Shown one piece after another: positions 30,084 to 39,799 of a stretch of 64,000 bases of DNA; positions within the stretch are counted from its first letter, which is position 1; each line of letters starts with the position of its first letter. A program made the translations under genes and the position numbers. This stretch comes from Elusimicrobia bacterium RIFOXYA2_FULL_47_53. GTDB lineage: Bacteria > Elusimicrobiota > Endomicrobiia > Endomicrobiales > XYA2-FULL-47-53. Location of the stretch: the NCBI GenBank assembly GCA_001800315.1, contig MGVE01000011.1:1-64000 (forward strand), in the 5' to 3' direction. The notes under the pieces were generated by a model. The model saw nothing but the letters and a program-made list of their open reading frames with translations. It ran no database searches and was not told the DNA's origin.

Positions 30084-30542
30084 ATGAAGATTATGGATTT
30101 TCTTTGTCCTGAAGCGATCAGTATTGACCTGAAAGGCCAGGACAAAAAATCGGCGATTAATGAACTGGTTGATCTGCTCGTAAAAGCTAAAAAAATCAAG
30201 AAACCCGCCGAGGTTATAGAAGCCGTCCTTGAAAGGGAAAAACTCGGTTCAACCGGCATCGGGCAGGGCGTCGCGATTCCTCACGGAAAAACCGAAGCTC
30301 TTTCCCAGCAGTTCGGCGTCCTCGGAATTTCCCAGAAAGGGCTTGATTTTAATTCTCTTGACGGCGAACCGGTATATATGGTGTTTCTGCTTGTGGGCCC
30401 CGTTGAAGTGGCGGGCCAGCATCTCAAGGCCCTGGCAAGAATATCCAGGCTTTTTAAGGATAAGTTTTTCCGGCAGGCTTTGCGCGACGCCAAATCGCCG
30501 GATGATGTGCTGAAAATCATACAGCGCGAGGACGCGTACTAA
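30084..30542 (+). CDS. ptsN: PTS EIIA-Ntr-like regulatory protein
   Basis: 152 residues of the fructose/nitrogen EIIA fold. The phosphorylatable histidine is His67 in IGQGVAIPHGKT. The rest (GISQKGLDFNSLDGEPVYMVFLLVGP and LARISRLFKD) matches PtsN. No membrane component or fructose-specific partner is adjacent, so a regulatory rather than transport role is likely. AAGGAG lies upstream of ATG 30084. It precedes hprK by 21 bases. Confidence 0.92.
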   Translation: MKIMDFLCPEAISIDLKGQDKKSAINELVDLLVKAKKIKKPAEVIEAVLEREKLGSTGIGQGVAIPHGKTEALSQQFGVLGISQKGLDFNSLDGEPVYMVFLLVGPVEVAGQHLKALARISRLFKDKFFRQALRDAKSPDDVLKIIQREDAY

Positions 30543-30563: not shown

Positions 30564-31499
30564 ATGTCTGAAATTAATGTCGGGAAATTTCTTCAGGAAA
30601 AAAGCGAAGACCTTAAGCTTGAGTTGCTTGCCGGAGTTGAGGGCCTGCCGAGATCAATAAAAGTGCCGGATGTAAACAGGCCCGGCCTTGCTCTCAGCGG
30701 TTACTTTGAACATTTTCCTGCCGAAAGAATACAGATAATAGGCCTTGGCGAGAACTCCTACCTTTCCACCCTGTCTTCAGAAAAACGAATTGAAAAATTA
30801 GAAAAAGTCCTTTCCTTCGGAGATATCCCGTGCGTTATACTGGCGCGCTCTCTTGAACCGTTTCCTGAGATGCTGGAAGCTCACCAGAAATACAAGGTAC
30901 CTCTTTTAAGAACTTCCATGAGGACTTCGCAGCTTGCCGGAGACCTCATTTTTTACCTTGAAGACAAGATGGCTTCTTCAACTTCAATGCACGGCGTGCT
31001 GGTAAGCGTTTACGGTCTTGGCGTCATGCTGGTGGGCAATGCCGGTATTGGAAAATCCGAGTGCGCATTGGAACTTGTGAAAAGGGGCCATATGCTGGTG
31101 GCCGACGATGTGGTTGAGATCCGCCAGCGTTCCGGCGGAATACTTATCGGCAAGGGCGAGGAGATCGTCCGCCATCATATGGAGGTCCGGGGGCTGGGCA
31201 TAATTGATATAAGAAGCCTGTTCGGCATAGGCTACATTCTTGATGAAACCAGAATTGAACTCATGATTAATCTTGAAGAATGGGGCCCGGACAGGCAGTA
31301 TGAAAGGGTCGGGCTTGAAGAACATTACACAACTATTTTGGAAGTGAAGGTCCCTGAAGTTACATTCCCCGTAAGGCCAGGAAGGAACCTCGCAGTGCTT
31401 GTGGAAATAGCCAGCCTTAACCAGCGCCTGAAAAACCGAGGCCATTATACGGCGCAACAGCTTAACCAGAGACTGATTCAGCTGATGAATCAGAAATAA
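30564..31499 (+). CDS. hprK: HPr kinase/phosphorylase
   Basis: 311 residues, normal length. The N-terminal regulatory domain spans about 1-130 and the catalytic P-loop is GNAGIGKS (158-165). His143, the VADDVVEI segment, and the HPrK signature around MEVRGLGIIDI are conserved. It phosphorylates HPr on Ser46 and removes it, linking carbon state to PTS activity. The HPr target with Ser46 is encoded at 37763-38026 in the same cluster, so the pair is probably functional. Confidence 0.96.
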   Translation: MSEINVGKFLQEKSEDLKLELLAGVEGLPRSIKVPDVNRPGLALSGYFEHFPAERIQIIGLGENSYLSTLSSEKRIEKLEKVLSFGDIPCVILARSLEPFPEMLEAHQKYKVPLLRTSMRTSQLAGDLIFYLEDKMASSTSMHGVLVSVYGLGVMLVGNAGIGKSECALELVKRGHMLVADDVVEIRQRSGGILIGKGEEIVRHHMEVRGLGIIDIRSLFGIGYILDETRIELMINLEEWGPDRQYERVGLEEHYTTILEVKVPEVTFPVRPGRNLAVLVEIASLNQRLKNRGHYTAQQLNQRLIQLMNQK

Positions 31500-31504
31500 T
31501 CCTA

Positions 31505-32371
31505 ATGAAAACAGAATTTTATATCATCACGGGGCTTTCCGGTGCGGGAAAAAGCCAGGCGTTGAAAATATTGGAAGACCTGGGTTTTTTCTGCGTTGAC
31601 AATCTTCCCGTCGCTTTGGTGCCGACTTTCGCCGATATGTGCCTGGACGAGAAAAACGGGCTTGATAAGGTCGCTCTCGGTATAGATGTGCGGGCCGGGA
31701 AAAATTACCTGAGTTCACTTGATAAAAATCTTGAACTTATCCGCGGCAAAGGGATTAAATATAAAATAATATATTTCAGAGCGGACGAGGCGACTCTCGC
31801 GCACAGGTATTCGGAGACAAGGCGAAAGCATCCTCTCGGTAAAAGAGTCGTGGACGCCATAAGAGGAGAGAAGAAGCTTCTTGAGAAAATCCGTCTTAAG
31901 TCAGACCTTGAAATAGATACTTCACACCTGACGCTTGGCGAGCTTAAGGAAATACTCGGCAGGTTGTTGGGTATTTCGTCCGATGTCTTGAAAATTTCGG
32001 TTGTCTCTTTTGGATATAAGTTCGGCATCCCCGTTGATGCCGACCTGGTTATTGATGTGAGGTTTCTTCCTAATCCAAATTATGTCGCTTCGTTGCGCGA
32101 GAAGACCGGAAAAGATTCCAGCGTGAAGAGGTATGTTGAGCGCCAGAAACCCACCAAAGAATTTTTTGGAAGATTTTTAAAACTGCTTGAGTTTTTGGTG
32201 CCTCTCTATATAAACGAAGGCAAAAGTTATCTGACCATTGGCATAGGCTGCACGGGAGGAAGGCACCGTTCCGTTGTCGTAGCCGAAAGAGTTGCCGCTT
32301 TCCTGAGAAAAATCAAATATAATCCTGTGATTCACCACAGGGATATTGAACGGAAGCTCCTGCCCGGTTAA
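31505..32371 (+). CDS. rapZ: RapZ/YvcJ-type nucleotide-binding protein
   Basis: 288 residues. Walker A is GLSGAGKS (10-17) close to the N-terminus; FCVDNLPVALVP and the C-terminal GIGCTGGRHRSVVVAE are family hallmarks. In E. coli RapZ controls glucosamine-6-phosphate synthase through small RNAs; in Firmicutes YvcJ is a nucleotide-binding protein of less clear role. The hprK-rapZ-yvcK order is a conserved cluster. It starts five bases after hprK. Confidence 0.95.
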   Translation: MKTEFYIITGLSGAGKSQALKILEDLGFFCVDNLPVALVPTFADMCLDEKNGLDKVALGIDVRAGKNYLSSLDKNLELIRGKGIKYKIIYFRADEATLAHRYSETRRKHPLGKRVVDAIRGEKKLLEKIRLKSDLEIDTSHLTLGELKEILGRLLGISSDVLKISVVSFGYKFGIPVDADLVIDVRFLPNPNYVASLREKTGKDSSVKRYVERQKPTKEFFGRFLKLLEFLVPLYINEGKSYLTIGIGCTGGRHRSVVVAERVAAFLRKIKYNPVIHHRDIERKLLPG

Positions 32372-32374
32372 GCT

Positions 32375-33334
32375 ATGAATAAAACTTTAAAGCGGAGTAA
32401 AATTGTCGCCCTGGGAGGAGGAACCGGCCTCGCTAACCTTCTGAGAGGGCTGAAAAAATATTCCTGTGATATTACCGCGGTTGTGGCCGTAACCGACGAC
32501 GGCGGCAGTTCCGGACGGCTCCGCCGCGAGCTTGGGATATTGCCTCCGGGAGACATCAGAAACTGTCTTGTGGCTCTTTCTCAGGAAGAGAATCTGATGG
32601 CAAGGCTTTTTCAGTATAGATTCCCGGCGGAAGGGTCTCTGGCAGGGCATTCCTTCGGAAATTTGTTTTTAACGGCGATGTCTGCCATTACAGGCGGTTT
32701 TGACAAGGCTATCTACAGCTCCGGAGAAGTGCTCGCGATAAGCGGAAGGGTTTTGCCCGTGACTCTGAAATCGGTAACCCTGAGCGCCGGCCTCGCCGAC
32801 GGCAATATTGTTGACGGCGAAACAAATATATCCCGTTCCAGTTCAAGGGTTAAAACCCTGATGATAAAGCCGTATTCTCCTCCCGCGGCTCCCATGGTTT
32901 TAGACGCGATAGCCGAGGCCGACTGTATTATTATGGGGCCGGGGTCGCTTTACACTTCTGTTATCGCCAATCTGCTTGTTGAGGGGGTAGCCGACGCCAT
33001 AGCCGCTTCAAAGGCCGCCAGGGTGTATGTCTCAAATATCATGACCCAGCCCGGAGAGACATCCGGATACACTATTGAGGATCATATTTCCGCTATTGAG
33101 AGCCACGCGGGACAGAATATAATTGATTATATTATTGTAAACGACGGCAGCATACCGGCAGGTATAGCTAAGCGTTACGCGAAAGAAGGTTCGGCTCCAG
33201 TTAAGGCGGAGAAAAAAGCCAGGTTTAAGGCCAGGATTATTAAGGCCGATCTTGTGGGGCTTGATGAGTATGCCAGGCACAATCCCGATAAATTAGCCGC
33301 TGTCATATATAAAAAAATATTAAAAAAACTGTAA
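32375..33334 (+). CDS. yvcK: YvcK/CofD-like gluconeogenesis factor
   Basis: 319 residues. KIVALGGGTGLANLLRGLKKY, AVVAVTDDGGSSGRLRRELG and PPGDIRNCLVALS at the N-terminus and IIMGPGSLYTSVIANLLV later identify the YvcK family. YvcK proteins bind UDP-sugars and are required for growth on gluconeogenic carbon sources and for normal peptidoglycan synthesis in Firmicutes. It is three bases after rapZ. A cofactor-F420 role (CofD) is unlikely because the sequence and neighbours are those of YvcK. Confidence 0.94.
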   Translation: MNKTLKRSKIVALGGGTGLANLLRGLKKYSCDITAVVAVTDDGGSSGRLRRELGILPPGDIRNCLVALSQEENLMARLFQYRFPAEGSLAGHSFGNLFLTAMSAITGGFDKAIYSSGEVLAISGRVLPVTLKSVTLSAGLADGNIVDGETNISRSSSRVKTLMIKPYSPPAAPMVLDAIAEADCIIMGPGSLYTSVIANLLVEGVADAIAASKAARVYVSNIMTQPGETSGYTIEDHISAIESHAGQNIIDYIIVNDGSIPAGIAKRYAKEGSAPVKAEKKARFKARIIKADLVGLDEYARHNPDKLAAVIYKKILKKL

Positions 33335-33347
33335 ACCGGGTGTTAGA

Positions 33348-33755
33348 ATGATTAAAATTCTCGTAATTACTCACGGAAGTTTCGGCACGGAAATGGTCAG
33401 GACGGCCGAGAACATTGTCGGGAAGCAGGATCATGTGGGGGTAATCGCGGTCAATCCCGAGGACAGCCTTTCTATCATGTGCAAGAGAACCGCCGAAACT
33501 CTTGAAAGCATGGAATCGGACAAGGGGATATTGATTTTTACCGATATGCTGGGCGGCACACCTTGTAACGCGTGCCTGCCTTACTCAATAAATAAAAATG
33601 TTGAAATTGTCAGCGGCGTTAATTTGTACATGCTTCTTTCGGCCTTTATCAACAGAAAAAATATGGATATAAAAGAGCTGGTGAAAAAGGTTCTTGCCGA
33701 CGGCGCGAAAAGCATTACGAACGCGAAAGAACTGCTTATCCAGAAAATGAAGTAG
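33348..33755 (+). CDS. Mannose-family PTS EIIA component
   Basis: 135 residues. The active histidine is His9 (LVITHGSFG); TDMLGGTPCNAC is the second family signature. It accepts phosphate from HPr and passes it to EIIB. It is a stand-alone domain, not fused to EIIB. No clear Shine-Dalgarno precedes the ATG 13 bases after yvcK. The EIIA lies next to the HprK-RapZ-YvcK block, a position also known for incomplete PTS regulatory systems, but here all other subunits follow. Confidence 0.93.
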   Translation: MIKILVITHGSFGTEMVRTAENIVGKQDHVGVIAVNPEDSLSIMCKRTAETLESMESDKGILIFTDMLGGTPCNACLPYSINKNVEIVSGVNLYMLLSAFINRKNMDIKELVKKVLADGAKSITNAKELLIQKMK

Positions 33756-33764
33756 GAGATTATA

Positions 33765-34259
33765 ATGCCGGTTATTTTAGTAAGAATTGACGACAGATTG
33801 ATTCATGGACAGATAGTTGAAGGGTGGCTTAAGCCCATTAAGGCCAATCACATCCTTATTGTGTCAGAGGAAGTGGCGAAGGACAAAATGCAGCAGATTC
33901 TGCTCGGGATGGCCGTTCCCGCCGGAGTCAAGCTCACCGCGGTAGGGGTTGAGGACGCGGCCGCCAAACTGAAGGCCGGGCTGTTTGAAAAAGATAATAC
34001 CCTGCTCCTTGTTTCGGGCCCTCAGTATGTGCTGGAGCTTGTGAAGCGCGGCATTGATTTTAAATCTGTTAATGTCGGCGGAATGCATTACTCGCCCGGA
34101 AAAAAACAGATTTCCAGAACGCTGTCGGTGAACGATGAGGAAATAACCGCCCTTATGGATTTGCACAAGGCCGGCATAGAGCTTGAAGGAAGGATCCTGC
34201 CGGGCGATGACAGGACGGATGTCTACGAAATTCTGAGAAAGGAACTGAATCTTCCTTAA
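33765..34259 (+). CDS. Mannose-family PTS EIIB component
   Basis: 164 residues. The phospho-acceptor histidine is His14 in VRIDDRLIHGQIVEGW. VNVGGMHYSPGKKQISRTLSV is also typical of the ManB/SorB family. It transfers phosphate from EIIA to the incoming sugar at the EIIC/EIID channel. TAGGAG precedes ATG 33765. The GH57 enzyme gene starts nine bases downstream. The sugar is not predictable. Confidence 0.95.
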   Translation: MPVILVRIDDRLIHGQIVEGWLKPIKANHILIVSEEVAKDKMQQILLGMAVPAGVKLTAVGVEDAAAKLKAGLFEKDNTLLLVSGPQYVLELVKRGIDFKSVNVGGMHYSPGKKQISRTLSVNDEEITALMDLHKAGIELEGRILPGDDRTDVYEILRKELNLP

Positions 34260-34268
34260 TATATAATT

Positions 34269-36323
34269 ATGAAAAAAGCATACCTTGCTATCGGTACTCA
34301 CAACCACCAGCCTGTCGGCAACTTCCCCGAAGTTTTTGAAAGGGCGTACCAGGAATCCTATAAGCCGTTCATGGAAACAATGGAGAAGAGGCCGAATTTT
34401 AAATGGTCTCTTCATTTAAGCGGCATCCTGTGGGATTTTATGGTTGATAAACACCCTGAATACATCGCCAAAGTGAGCGAAATGGTGCGCGCGGGGCGGC
34501 TTGAGCTTCTTTCCGGCGGGTATTACGAGCCAATCCTGGCTGTAATCCCGGACGCCGACAAGAAAGGCCAGGTGGCGAAACTGAATAAATTCCTGAAAGA
34601 TACATTCAAATATGATTCTACGGGAGTCTGGCTGACCGAGAGGATATGGGAGCCGCATATGCCGAGGCCTCTGAGCGAGTCCGGCGTTCAATATACCGTA
34701 ATAGACGATTCTCATTTCGCGGCTTCAGGCATGGATGTGGAAAACCTGCGCGGCTATTTTCTTACCGAAGAACAGGGCATGCCGCTATCCGTGTTCCCTA
34801 TCAGCCAGCGCCTGAGATACTATATGCCTTTTAAGCCTCCCCATTACACCATTGATTACATGAAGTCGTTTTTGAATAATTACGATAATCCGCTTTTTGT
34901 GATGGCCGATGACGGCGAGAAGTTCGGCCACTGGCCCGGCACCTATAAACATGTCTACCAGGACGGCTGGCTTGAACAGTTTTTAAACGAGGTGGAAAAG
35001 CACGACTGGATAGAAACAATCACCTTTTCCGAGTACCGCGAGAAGTTCCGCCCTGTCGGCAGGGTGTATATCCCGACGGCTTCTTATTTTGAGATGTCGG
35101 AGTGGTCCCTGCCGGAGTCCTCGCAGGAGTCCTTTGAACATGTTGTTAAAGAGTTTGAACACAGAGACGATGTTAAAAGATACCTCAAGGGCGGTTTCTG
35201 GAGAAATTTCCTGACAAAGTATTCCGAGTCCAATAACATGCACAAAAAGATGCTTTATGTCAGCTCAAAGATTAATTCTAAACTCAACGGTAAGCCCGCG
35301 GGAGGCAGCCTCAGCGCAGCCGTAGATTCGCTTTACGCGGCTCAGTGCAACTGCGCGTACTGGCACGGTGTTTTCGGAGGCCTTTACCTGCCGCACCTGA
35401 GGAACGCGGTTTACAGCGAAATAATAAACGCCGAGAATAACTGTGAGCCGGATGCCGATTCCAGGGCGTGGAAGGAAACTGATTTTAATGTTGACGGCAG
35501 GAATGAACTGCTTTTTGAATCAAAAAAACAGAATGTTTATGTCTCGCCTTCAAAGGGCGGCGCGATATTTGAATGGGATATAAAGGGAAAGAGGTTAAAC
35601 CTTCTCAATGTCCTGACCAGGCGCAAAGAGGCCTATCATAAGAAGCTCGTTGAATTTAACCGGAATAAGCAGGAAGCCTCGGCGGGTGCCGCGAGCATCC
35701 ACGATGTTGTTAAGGTCAAGGAAGACAATCTGGATAAATACCTTAATTATGACTGGTATGAAAAATTATCCCTGATAGATCATTTTATTCATCCGGACAC
35801 GAAATTTGAAAATTTCAGAAGATGCCAGTACGGCGAACAGGGAGATTTTGTTTTCGGCGAGTACGACGCGCTGCGCAAAAATAGCTTGTTAAGTTTGTCC
35901 AGGAACGGGAAAGTCTGGTTTGAGGACAAGCATATAGACATTTCGCTGTCAAAAGAGATTGAGCCCGGGCCCGAGGGCATTAAGGTTCGCTATAAGATAA
36001 AGAATAATTCTAAAATTGAGGTGGCTCTGCGTTTCGCCCCGGAGTTTAACTTCTCGTTTTCCTCTAATAACGCCGATACGGACGGAGAGTTCAAACAGGC
36101 TTCCCAATGGGCCCGTAAAGACAGCCATTTCGGCGTTGACTTGTCATTAGTTCCGGACAAGAGCGTAATGTTCTGGGCTTTCCCGATAGAAACGGTTTCT
36201 CTCTCCGAGGCGGGGTTTGAAAAGACCTATCAGGGCACCACGGTCGCCCTGGTGCATAATCTGGCCATAAAACCCTCCGGCACCCAGAGTTTTGAAATTT
36301 TGGTTAAGATAAAGGAAAAATAA
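34269..36323 (+). CDS. GH57 4-alpha-glucanotransferase/alpha-amylase
   Basis: 684 residues, close to the length of Thermococcus-type GH57 4-alpha-glucanotransferases. The catalytic barrel starts GTHNHQPVGNFPEVFERAY. The nucleophile is predicted as Glu124 (WLTERIWEPHMP) and the acid as Asp214/215 (MADDGEKFGHWPGTYKHVY), at the positions expected from the family. The C-terminal half has the DUF1925/DUF1926-type beta-sandwich (DFNVDGRNELLFES, GGAIFEWDI, WYEKLSLIDHFI). No signal peptide, so it works on glycogen or malto-oligosaccharide in the cytoplasm. It lies between PTS EIIB and EIIC and abuts EIIC without a gap, showing co-expression with sugar import. No Shine-Dalgarno is visible. Confidence 0.9.
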   Translation: MKKAYLAIGTHNHQPVGNFPEVFERAYQESYKPFMETMEKRPNFKWSLHLSGILWDFMVDKHPEYIAKVSEMVRAGRLELLSGGYYEPILAVIPDADKKGQVAKLNKFLKDTFKYDSTGVWLTERIWEPHMPRPLSESGVQYTVIDDSHFAASGMDVENLRGYFLTEEQGMPLSVFPISQRLRYYMPFKPPHYTIDYMKSFLNNYDNPLFVMADDGEKFGHWPGTYKHVYQDGWLEQFLNEVEKHDWIETITFSEYREKFRPVGRVYIPTASYFEMSEWSLPESSQESFEHVVKEFEHRDDVKRYLKGGFWRNFLTKYSESNNMHKKMLYVSSKINSKLNGKPAGGSLSAAVDSLYAAQCNCAYWHGVFGGLYLPHLRNAVYSEIINAENNCEPDADSRAWKETDFNVDGRNELLFESKKQNVYVSPSKGGAIFEWDIKGKRLNLLNVLTRRKEAYHKKLVEFNRNKQEASAGAASIHDVVKVKEDNLDKYLNYDWYEKLSLIDHFIHPDTKFENFRRCQYGEQGDFVFGEYDALRKNSLLSLSRNGKVWFEDKHIDISLSKEIEPGPEGIKVRYKIKNNSKIEVALRFAPEFNFSFSSNNADTDGEFKQASQWARKDSHFGVDLSLVPDKSVMFWAFPIETVSLSEAGFEKTYQGTTVALVHNLAIKPSGTQSFEILVKIKEK

Positions 36324-36977
36324 ATGGCGGAAATCACGGTTCTTGCGTTTATCGCGGCGCTTATCAGCCTTGATATCACGGCTTTCGGGCAGTTTATGAT
36401 TTCAAGACCGGCGATAGTCGGCCCCCTGTTCGGTTATCTCATGGGGGATATTAAAACCGGCCTTGTAATAGGTTTTATTATTGAGCTTATCTGGGTTTCG
36501 TTTATACCCATGGGAGCGGCTATACCCACCGATGTAACTACCGTCGCGGTTTTATCGTCCGTCTGGGGCCTTAAGTACTTCAGCGGGCATCACGGCATAA
36601 TCGTGCTTGCCATGCTTCTTGCTATACCGGCCGGCATGCTCTATAAACAGTTTGACATCATAGTAAGATACTTTAATGTCAGCGTTATGAGGTGGGTGGA
36701 GGAAGGCGTTAAGAACGGCGATGAACGCAGGATAGAATACGGCGTGCACTTCAGCCTGCTGCTTTTTTTCTTTAAGTCATTTGTGTTCTATTTTCTGCTG
36801 ATCGCGACAGGAAAACTTCTTGTTCACGGAATGTTCTTAAAGCTTCCCGGCGGAGTGATGGAAGGCTTTGATATTACCTGGCATGTGCTCCCGGCCTTCG
36901 CTATGGCCGTTATGCTTGTCAGCTTTCTTCCAGGCCGGTTGGCTTTCAATAGAGAACGGAAAGAAAATGAAAAATAA
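36324..36977 (+). CDS. Mannose-family PTS EIIC component
   Basis: 217 residues with about six transmembrane segments. Family features are LISLDITAFGQFMISRPAIVGPLFGYLMGD and GFIIELIWVSFIPMGAAIPTDVT. It forms the sugar channel with EIID. It is shorter than the 250-270 residues of E. coli ManY, mainly at the C-terminus. ATG 36324 follows the GH57 stop directly. The last 11 bases overlap EIID. Confidence 0.92.
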   Translation: MAEITVLAFIAALISLDITAFGQFMISRPAIVGPLFGYLMGDIKTGLVIGFIIELIWVSFIPMGAAIPTDVTTVAVLSSVWGLKYFSGHHGIIVLAMLLAIPAGMLYKQFDIIVRYFNVSVMRWVEEGVKNGDERRIEYGVHFSLLLFFFKSFVFYFLLIATGKLLVHGMFLKLPGGVMEGFDITWHVLPAFAMAVMLVSFLPGRLAFNRERKENEK

Positions 36978-37746
36978 TAAAATCCTGACACTCGCTTTTT
37001 TGAGGTCCTTTTACCTCCAGGCTACCTGGAATTTTGAAAGGATGCAGAATGTCGGATTTCTGTATATCCTGCTCCCGTTTTTTCAGTTTATTTACCCAGA
37101 CAAAGAAAAGAGGAAGGCTGTGCTGCTGCGGCACCTGGGATTTTTTAATACTCATCCTTACGCGGCCAGCGTAATTCTGGGTATCGTGGCTTCAATGGAG
37201 GCCGAAAGGGCCGAACAGGACACTATCGGTGAAGGCGAGATAATGGTATTAAAAACTAATATGGCCGGCCCCCTTGCCGCGATAGGGGACGCGTTTTTCT
37301 GGGCGACCTGGCGGCCTTTTGTGGTTGCCTTGTCTTTGTTTATTGTCGTATTTTTTGTTGAAGACCCCGGTTTTCGCGGGACCTGGTTCGCTCCTCTGTT
37401 TTTTCTTGTGGTGTTTAACGCTCTTCATCTTCCTTTCAGGTACTGGGGTCTTAAGGTAAGTTACACTGCCCGCACCAGGGTTGTTAAGATCATCGCCGGA
37501 ATGGAGTTTCAGAAAATAATAGATTTTATCAGGTATATGGGCATGGTTATTGTTACGCTGTCTTTTGTTTTCTATCTTTTATTTTCACTGCATAGCACGG
37601 CTGAGTATGCCGTTGTGATAATTGTGTTTCTCGCCACCATAGCGGGCGGAGCTGTTTTAAAATCGCCGACCGCGCTGTTTTATATTTTAACGGCTATAGG
37701 CGTCGTACTGGCTTATATGAAAATAGATTTTATTAAATTCATGTGA
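36967..37746 (+). CDS. Mannose-family PTS EIID component
   Basis: 259 residues from ATG 36967. A longer frame from 36868 would overlap EIIC by 110 bases and adds no family match. FLRSFYLQATWNFERMQNVGFLY, FFNTHPYAASVILGIVASME and TNMAGPLAAIGDAFFWATWRP are ManZ/EIID signatures; the C-terminus has three or four transmembrane helices. EIID is unique to mannose-family PTS permeases, which fixes the class of this system. Confidence 0.94.
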   Translation: MKNNKILTLAFLRSFYLQATWNFERMQNVGFLYILLPFFQFIYPDKEKRKAVLLRHLGFFNTHPYAASVILGIVASMEAERAEQDTIGEGEIMVLKTNMAGPLAAIGDAFFWATWRPFVVALSLFIVVFFVEDPGFRGTWFAPLFFLVVFNALHLPFRYWGLKVSYTARTRVVKIIAGMEFQKIIDFIRYMGMVIVTLSFVFYLLFSLHSTAEYAVVIIVFLATIAGGAVLKSPTALFYILTAIGVVLAYMKIDFIKFM

Positions 37747-37762
37747 ATGGAGCGTTATAATA

Positions 37763-38026
37763 ATGCAAGAGAAAGTTATTACCATTAAAAATAAACTTGG
37801 TTTACACGCGAGGCCGGCGGCCATGTTCGTGCAGACTGCCGCCAGATTTAAGTCAAAAATCAAGATTATCAAGGATGAACAGGAAGTGGACGGCAAAAGC
37901 ATCATGGGTATTATGACTCTTGCGGCTTCCTTCGGCACAGAAATAAAGCTTATCGTTGACGGAGCTGACGAGGCGGCCGCTGTAGAGGCGATCTCTCTGC
38001 TTTTTGAATCGGGTTTCGGTGAATAA
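37763..38026 (+). CDS. ptsH: Phosphocarrier protein HPr
   Basis: 87 residues. The active His15 lies in KLGLHARPAAMFVQ and the regulatory Ser46 in VDGKSIMGIMTLAA, so both phosphorylation sites are intact: His15 for enzyme I and Ser46 for HprK. A GGAG 10 bases upstream of ATG 37763 is the likely ribosome-binding site. Enzyme I follows after 21 bases. Confidence 0.96.
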   Translation: MQEKVITIKNKLGLHARPAAMFVQTAARFKSKIKIIKDEQEVDGKSIMGIMTLAASFGTEIKLIVDGADEAAAVEAISLLFESGFGE

Positions 38027-38047
38027 AATTTATCAGGGGAGCTGACA

Positions 38048-39799
38048 ATGGCGTTAAAAATTACTAATGTGCTTCAGGGAATAGCTGCCTCGCCGGGTAT
38101 TGTTATCGGCAAGGTTTTCCTGCTTGAAGACGAGGAGCTTACTCTCGTTCAGAAAGAGATTGGTAAGGACGAGGTAAAACGGGAGATCCAGCGTTTTCGC
38201 GACGCGCTTGTTAAAACACGCGCCGAGATGGTTTCTATTCAGGAAAAGATACTTAAGACTCTTGGTAAGGAATACGCCAGGCTTTCCGACGCTTATCTTT
38301 TGATTCTTGAGGACCCGCTGATAACCAGGGATGTTATTAAGAGAATAAATGAAGGGGTAAACGCTGAATACGCCCTTTTTAAAATACTGGAAAGAGTCAT
38401 ACATTCATTTGAAATGATTGACGATGAGTATTTCAGAGAGAGAAAGCACGATATTCAGGATGTCGGCAAGAAAATATTAAGGCATCTTCTGGGCAAGGAA
38501 AGAAGGCAGTTATCGGATCTGACCTCGGAGTCCATAGTAGTGGGCCATAATCTTACCCCGTCAGACACGATTTCCATGAAGGAAAGCCTTATTAAGGGCT
38601 TTGTTACGGACATAGGCGGCAGGACTTCTCATACCGCCATAGTTGCGCAGGGCCTGGAGATACCCGCGGTTGTCGGGCTTAAGAATGTGACCGGCCAGGT
38701 TAATGAAGGGGAAGTAATCATTGTTGACGGCAATCAGGGGCTGGTAATCATAAATCCCACCGCGGAGCTTCTTGAAAATTACAGAAGAGAGCAGGAGATA
38801 CAGCTCGCGCAGATACGCGAACTTGAAAAGTTAAGGGATCTTCCTGCCCAGACTACCGACAGTCACAGGGTTACGATAGCCGCCAATATTGACAATGTGG
38901 ACGAGGTTAAATCGGTCCTAAGCCACGGCGCAGAGGGGATCGGCCTGTACAGAACCGAATTTTTATATTTTAATAAAAGCGCTTTGCCTTCGGAAGAAGA
39001 ACACTACCAGAACTATCTCAAGGTGGCGCAGAAAATGCTGCCTTACTCGGTGATAATAAGAACGATAGATCTTGGCGGCGATAAGCTTTCTCATCTCGGG
39101 CTGGAAGGCATTACAGTTGAAAATAATCCATTTATGGGACTTAGGGCTATCCGTCTTTGCCTTAAATATCCGTCAATATTTAAAACGCAGTTAAGGGGCA
39201 TATTGCGAGCTTCGGCGGAATGCAAAATAAAAATAATGTATCCGATGATTTCCGGTATTAATGAGCTGCGCGACGCGAACAAAATCCTTGAAGAAACTAA
39301 GGCTGAACTGAGGAAGGAAGGCAAGAGGTTTGACGAGAATATTGAAGTCGGCGTAATGATAGAAGTCCCTTCGGCGGCTCTGACAGCCGACCTTATCGCG
39401 AAAGAGGCGGATTTCCTCTCCGTGGGAACCAATGACCTTATACAATACACTCTGGCCGTTGACAGGGTAAACGAGAATGTGGCCAACCTTTATGAGCCGT
39501 TGCATCTTTCTATCTTAAGGCTTTTAAAGACTGTGATTGACGCGGGGCATAACGCCGGTAAATGGGTCGGCATGTGCGGTGAAATGGCGGCTGACGCCAC
39601 CTTTACCACAGTTCTTCTTGGCCTCGGGCTAAATGAGTTCAGCGTGTCCCCGGTTCAGATTCCCAAGATAAAAAGGATAGTGAGAAGTGTTTCTATAATG
39701 GAGGCAAGAGCTCTTGTCGCCGAGATTATGGAATGCACCGAGCAGGAAGAAATCATAAAAATAATAAAAAAACGCGAGTTTAAGGGGATGTCTAATTAA
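38048..39799 (+). CDS. ptsI: PTS enzyme I (phosphoenolpyruvate-protein phosphotransferase)
   Basis: 583 residues, full length. The active His195 lies in [23 protein letters not shown]. The PEP-binding barrel has [52 protein letters not shown] and the catalytic Cys of GMCGEMAAD. It starts the phosphorelay to HPr. A GGGGAG ribosome-binding site is present. The stop codon lies inside a long hairpin that may end the PTS transcript. Confidence 0.97.

Follow-up and report, generated by a model that had tools for sequence, protein, structure and literature searches.

The window examined here, a stretch of 64,000 nucleotides from a 2.4 Mb genome of the phylum Elusimicrobiota (class Endomicrobia), carries on its plus strand a nearly gapless series of genes in the order hpf, EIIA of the fructose/Ntr type, hprK, rapZ, yvcK, EIIA-Man, EIIB, GH57, EIIC, EIID, HPr, EI, lepA and lepB. 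The genes that precede the mannose-family PTS encode the fructose/Ntr-type EIIA (30084..30542; PF00359, E 7.8e-40; TIGR00848 above cut-off), the HPr(Ser) kinase/phosphorylase HprK (30564..31499; TIGR00679, E 6e-110, above cut-off), a RapZ-like protein (31505..32371; PF03668 and PF22740) and a YvcK/CofD-like protein (32375..33334; PF01933, E 2.6e-113). An earlier note on this DNA had read these genes as ptsN-hprK-rapZ-yvcK. The order is as described, but the gene called ptsN is best matched by the fructose-EIIA model TIGR00848, and its scores with the PtsN models do not reach their cut-off.

The PTS proper consists of EIIA (33348..33755; PF03610, E 1.9e-21), EIIB (33765..34259; PF03830, E 6.9e-48), EIIC (36324..36977; PF03609, E 3e-29), EIID (36967..37746; PF03613, E 1.6e-50), HPr (37763..38026; TIGR01003 above cut-off) and EI (38048..39799; TIGR01417, E 4e-194, above cut-off). 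All four subunits of the permease match Pfam models of the mannose-fructose-sorbose family (TC 4.A.6) above cut-off. The active-site residues can be read directly: His9 in EIIA, His14 in EIIB, His15 and Ser46 in HPr and the GGRTSH motif in EI, as expected from the earlier claim of a complete system with intact active histidines. HprK and HPr Ser46 (within GKSIMG) are both present, which are the sequence requirements of an HprK/HPr-regulated system, and such regulation is predicted. The EIIA active His is kept in 60 of the 61 loci compared, the exception being an operon that lacks the permease (L166:11884-12315, minus strand), where TRG stands in place of THG and the active His is gone. EIIC and EIID of the window (36324-37746) fall far short of the NCBIfam cut-offs set for the mannose-PTS subfamilies known so far; EIIC, with 217 aa, is shorter than the reference models, and the EIID match covers only the first 190 or so of 265 profile positions. 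Judged by these profiles, the two proteins represent a distinct branch of the mannose-PTS family. The EIID start codon, an ATG at 36967, places the 5′ end of this gene 11 nt inside the 3′ end of EIIC.

Between EIIB and EIIC lies a GH57 gene (34269..36323), separated from EIIB by 9 nt and from EIIC by 0 nt, in agreement with the earlier reading of this junction. The EIIC start is preceded by AAGGA inside the 3′ end of GH57. Terminator-like and promoter-like sites in the window operon are no commoner than in shuffled sequence, and the genes may be read as a single transcript. The encoded protein matches PF03065, PF09094 and PF09095, all above cut-off, which is the three-domain architecture of 4-alpha-glucanotransferases, and the Thermococcus litoralis 4-alpha-glucanotransferase (PDB 1k1w) matches it over its full length (E 7e-148). 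Its Glu124 and Asp214 align with Glu123 and Asp214, the catalytic residues of the T. litoralis enzyme, and all 99 homologues compared have the same two residues. In GH57 enzymes of the 4-alpha-glucanotransferase type, the Glu is the nucleophile and the Asp the acid/base. Among the NCBIfam models, no family names the window GH57. The T. litoralis enzyme belongs to another domain of life, whereas here the gene is bacterial and sits inside a PTS operon, and its activity is a prediction: the protein is a putative 4-alpha-glucanotransferase (EC 2.4.1.25) that would transfer alpha-1,4-glucan chains.

An intact GH57 gene of the window type is present in 82 of 246 Elusimicrobiota genomes, each at least 80% complete, and 71 of these 82 also encode EIID. 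The two genes are neighbours on one contig, with EIID immediately downstream, in 68 of the 71; they lie on different contigs in two genomes, and one was not judged. Among the 80 loci listed for the nearest GH57 homologues, GH57 belongs to the PTS operon or adjoins HPr-EI in nearly every Elusimicrobiota locus of sufficient length to judge. Where EIIB and GH57 occur in the same locus (47 loci), EIIB is adjacent to GH57 in 46 and GH57 to EIIC in 45, on one strand and with a median gap of about 10 nt. Within the operon GH57 is under purifying selection (dN/dS of 0.05-0.10 in the better-diverged pairs, like the other operon genes). Chance or an assembly artefact is ruled out by the identical order in dozens of independent assemblies. 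The earlier note had held that the link would be weak if the order were confined to its one assembly, and had known of no other example; the order recurs, being usual in Endomicrobia and present in other phyla as well.

Five metagenome-assembled genomes labelled as lying outside Elusimicrobiota carry GH57 in a PTS operon or by HPr-EI: L034, L036, L038, L064 (Eisenbacteria) and L084 (Firestonebacteria). Operon-borne copies do not form one clean clade in the GH57 tree, where the L064 and L084 copies group, with moderate support, with copies from other phyla that lie outside such operons; these two loci are long branches in the HPr/EI/HprK and EII trees. Adjacency of GH57 and the PTS is not forced, because genomes of Caldithrix, KSB1 and one member of Zixibacteria (L030, L037 and L057) hold both GH57 and EIID with GH57 not beside PTS genes. 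Outside the PTS operon, GH57 follows a ROK kinase gene (LCP-89) or an MlaD-domain gene (Zixibacteria) at L068:7036-8001, L032:383-1423, L046:7066-7995 and L073:5229-6134. A search of PLSDB for plasmid-borne GH57 copies gave no match. The association of GH57 with the PTS genes is real and conserved, and it is probably functional.

Growth of Endomicrobium proavitum, whose PTS is very similar, is supported by glucose but by neither mannose nor fructose (PMC8809381), and for this reason the PTS described here, by analogy, probably imports glucose. The PTS of Endomicrobia has been described as a glucose system (PMC11257099), and the mannose-type glucose PTS of Endomicrobiaceae (PMC11257099, PMC8809381) is the present system, in the same bacterial family. 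Term searches of these two papers found no mention of glycogen or glucanotransferase. In the open-access literature searched we likewise found no description of the EIIB-GH57-EIIC arrangement, which is a weak negative.

Glycoside hydrolase genes inside or beside EIIA-EIIB-EIIC-EIID genes are known from Streptococcus pneumoniae, an instance that also bears on the earlier note, which knew of no other example, although with a different logic. By locus numbers, SP0322 lies between the genes for EIIA (SP0321) and EIIB (SP0323) in SP0321-SP0325, and bgaC precedes the SP0061-64 mannose-PTS genes; the enzymes act on imported glycan, and a glucuronyl hydrolase in such an operon is the model for processing of an imported oligosaccharide (PMC3302838). 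If this model applied, GH57 would make or consume the sugar of the permease, either by freeing glucose that EIIBCD phosphorylates from the inside or by processing an imported oligosaccharide derived from glucan. In mannose-PTS operons the transported glycan is indeed the usual target of the glycosidase (SP0321-SP0325, PMC3302838), and in the window translation of EIIC begins directly at the GH57 stop. The enzyme family found here, however, acts on storage glucans, HPr, EI and HprK belong to the same cluster, and enzyme and permease have been lost independently. EIID is found without intact GH57 in 137 genomes overall, including at least 11 symbionts, and GH57 is found without the permease in about ten; a ROK glucokinase, kept where GH57 is, would provide freed glucose with a kinase of its own. 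The mutual dependence of glycosidase and permease expected of a substrate-processing operon is not seen, as each is kept alone in several lineages, and the pneumococcal logic therefore fails here. Metabolic coupling of this kind is thus quite improbable, and the glucan-derived PTS substrate that the earlier note had offered as one option is disfavoured because the permease persists in those symbionts after GH57 decay and in the 137 genomes at large.

These symbionts belong to one genus of intracellular flagellate symbionts in Endomicrobia (g7). At least 11 of its genomes have continuous EIIA, EIIB, EIIC, EIID, HPr and EI genes without an intact GH57 (in G160 the contig ends inside EI), and in five loci (L154, L155, L156, L158 and L160) GH57 remnants, truncated or interrupted by stops, occupy exactly the place between an intact EIIB and an intact EIIC. 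Across the genus, GH57 and glycogen phosphorylase are both present in seven genomes and both absent from 21; GH57 alone occurs in one genome and phosphorylase alone in none. The presence of GH57 thus tracks phosphorylase and not EIID, which occurs without GH57 in 11 genomes. ROK glucokinase is intact in seven of the eight g7 genomes that have GH57, whereas every other g7 genome searched lacks an intact copy. All members of this genus are reported to have lost the ABC glucose importer (PMC11257099), and the remaining client of ROK is therefore plausibly glucose freed inside the cell. On the tree, the joint loss of GH57 and phosphorylase is backed by four independent pairs, all in the same direction; with four pairs only, the sign test gives at best 0.125 and cannot reach significance, and symbiont genomes shed many genes simultaneously. 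One symbiont, G031 (L189), is alone in having an intact GH57 without glycogen phosphorylase; its ROK gene is broken, and it has perhaps been caught at the onset of losing the glycogen pathway. In another symbiont operon (L153, genome G012), hprK and hpf are broken, with EIIA-EIIB-EIIC-EIID-HPr-EI and rapZ intact; to judge from these genes, its PTS has lost HprK control.

A second line of evidence comes from GH77, a glycoside hydrolase family distinct from GH57 in CAZy, to which the amylomaltase MalQ belongs. Among the 246 genomes, 61 have GH57 only, 136 GH77 only, 21 both and 28 neither, so that the two are largely complementary, and 201 of the 207 phosphorylase-bearing genomes have one or the other. 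A strict rule pairing GH57 with phosphorylase across the phylum is rejected (Fisher p 0.71; these p-values for gene co-occurrence ignore the relatedness of the genomes), and the partnership is not strict because 14 genomes, mainly of families f11, f13, f14 and f10, have GH57 without a detectable phosphorylase. The complementarity of GH57 and GH77 is the stronger signal, and it lends indirect support to the predicted glucanotransferase activity (EC 2.4.1.25). The distribution expected of a MalQ-equivalent, complementary to GH77 and tied to phosphorylase, is therefore found in the main, not strictly.

Within the taxonomic order to which the window belongs, GH77 is confined to G050 and G055, if one disregards a few matches that are weak or partial. 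These are non-symbiont Endomicrobiaceae whose operons (L162 and L163) run EIIA-EIIB-EIIC-EIID without GH57 and which have kept phosphorylase. In the EII tree both fall in a single clade that is nested among GH57 carriers, and hence one loss of GH57 and one replacement account for them. MalQ, presumed to catalyse the same reaction as GH57, takes its place in these two genomes and in most GH57-less Elusimicrobiota, but it is of another glycoside hydrolase family and is not found in the PTS operon. In the two genomes GH77 (G050:C93:787-2646 and G055:C147:1082-2923) lies in open frames of about 900 aa, a length well beyond that of MalQ. The other non-symbionts without an intact GH57 (G032, G035 and G154) are fragmented assemblies; a contig end cuts GH57 or EIIC in G035 and G154, and G032 shows no EIID either. 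The strongest single result of this analysis is that, with the loss of glycogen breakdown, GH57 alone decays in a PTS operon that otherwise stays whole, and that intact PTS operons lack GH57 where the genome has GH77.

That genomes have lost one partner and not the other suggests a role for the enzyme in turning over glycogen, not in the work of the transporter. In established MalQ-type pathways, maltodextrins are recombined and the resulting glucose is then phosphorylated. We consider it likely that GH57 fills the place of MalQ in the turnover of intracellular glycogen, is co-expressed with a probable glucose PTS and HPr/EI/HprK, and is neither a part of the permease nor the maker of its substrate. 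In the cytoplasm the enzyme would have glycogen and maltodextrins as substrates and would work together with glycogen phosphorylase and ROK glucokinase: phosphorylase would shorten the glycogen chains and leave short maltodextrins, GH57 would recombine these into longer chains and free glucose, and ROK glucokinase would phosphorylate the glucose released. Co-transcription with the PTS and HPr/EI/HprK would let the cell adjust the expression of glucose import, of phospho-signalling and of store turnover together. Linked control of uptake and alpha-glucan turnover, the other suggestion of the earlier note, is the best-supported explanation for an arrangement that is conserved, selected and phylum-wide.

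The genome of the window also encodes GlgA, a phosphorylase with DUF3417, a GH57 branching enzyme and ROK, all on contigs other than that of the PTS operon. Many other genomes similarly keep GH57 with the PTS and the remaining glycogen genes elsewhere, and each partner can be lost alone, as would be expected if GH57 had simply been trapped in a highly expressed ancestral operon and its position had no regulatory meaning. We regard such purely historical linkage as unlikely in view of the position being held across phylum-level distances and in the Eisenbacteria and Firestonebacteria genomes, and of what happens when the permease is lost. In L024, L029, L047 and L166-L173, GH57 still lies by HPr-EI, with or without EIIA, after EIIBCD has gone; these genomes have no clear EIID elsewhere. 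By one count, nine loci have this permease-less form. Moreover, a second pair of glycogen genes has entered the same operon in another clade: in family f11 and its relatives, the PTS operon has gained genes for a GH57 branching enzyme and a DUF4912 protein (L024, L027, L047, L169 and L171), in L027 as well as in several permease-less loci. DUF4912 may itself take part in glycogen metabolism. The DUF4912-branching enzyme pair of the window's own genome sits elsewhere, at L202:4964-7529.

A more speculative reading is direct control of the enzyme by the phosphorelay. By analogy, unphosphorylated or P-Ser HPr, or EIIA, might bind the enzyme and control it. There is a precedent in E. coli, where HPr controls glycogen phosphorylase (PMC11046441) and thus provides a molecular link of the PTS to glycogen breakdown; that case involves another enzyme family and another step without gene linkage. 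Operons with EIIA-GH57-HPr-EI and HprK persist without the permease, the HPr Ser46 region and the EI active His are kept, and EIIA retains its active His in L024, L167 and L171. On the other side, EIIA appears dispensable in some permease-less loci, because it is absent there or, in L166, is without the active His. Such targeting of GH57 has, in our estimate, only a small chance of being correct. A dedicated PTS-to-glycogen module, in which the phosphorylation state of HPr or EIIA, set by EI and HprK, would directly switch GH57, and in which EIIA-GH57-HPr-EI-HprK would become a purely regulatory PTS for the glucose store after loss of EIIBCD, is rather unlikely.

By this arrangement of genes the principal sugar-sensing phosphorelay is linked with the turnover of glycogen, as the rule in Endomicrobia and again in other lineages. 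It thereby becomes testable outside E. coli whether storage glucan is under PTS control and by what means, and the termite-gut symbionts are natural knock-outs of each half.
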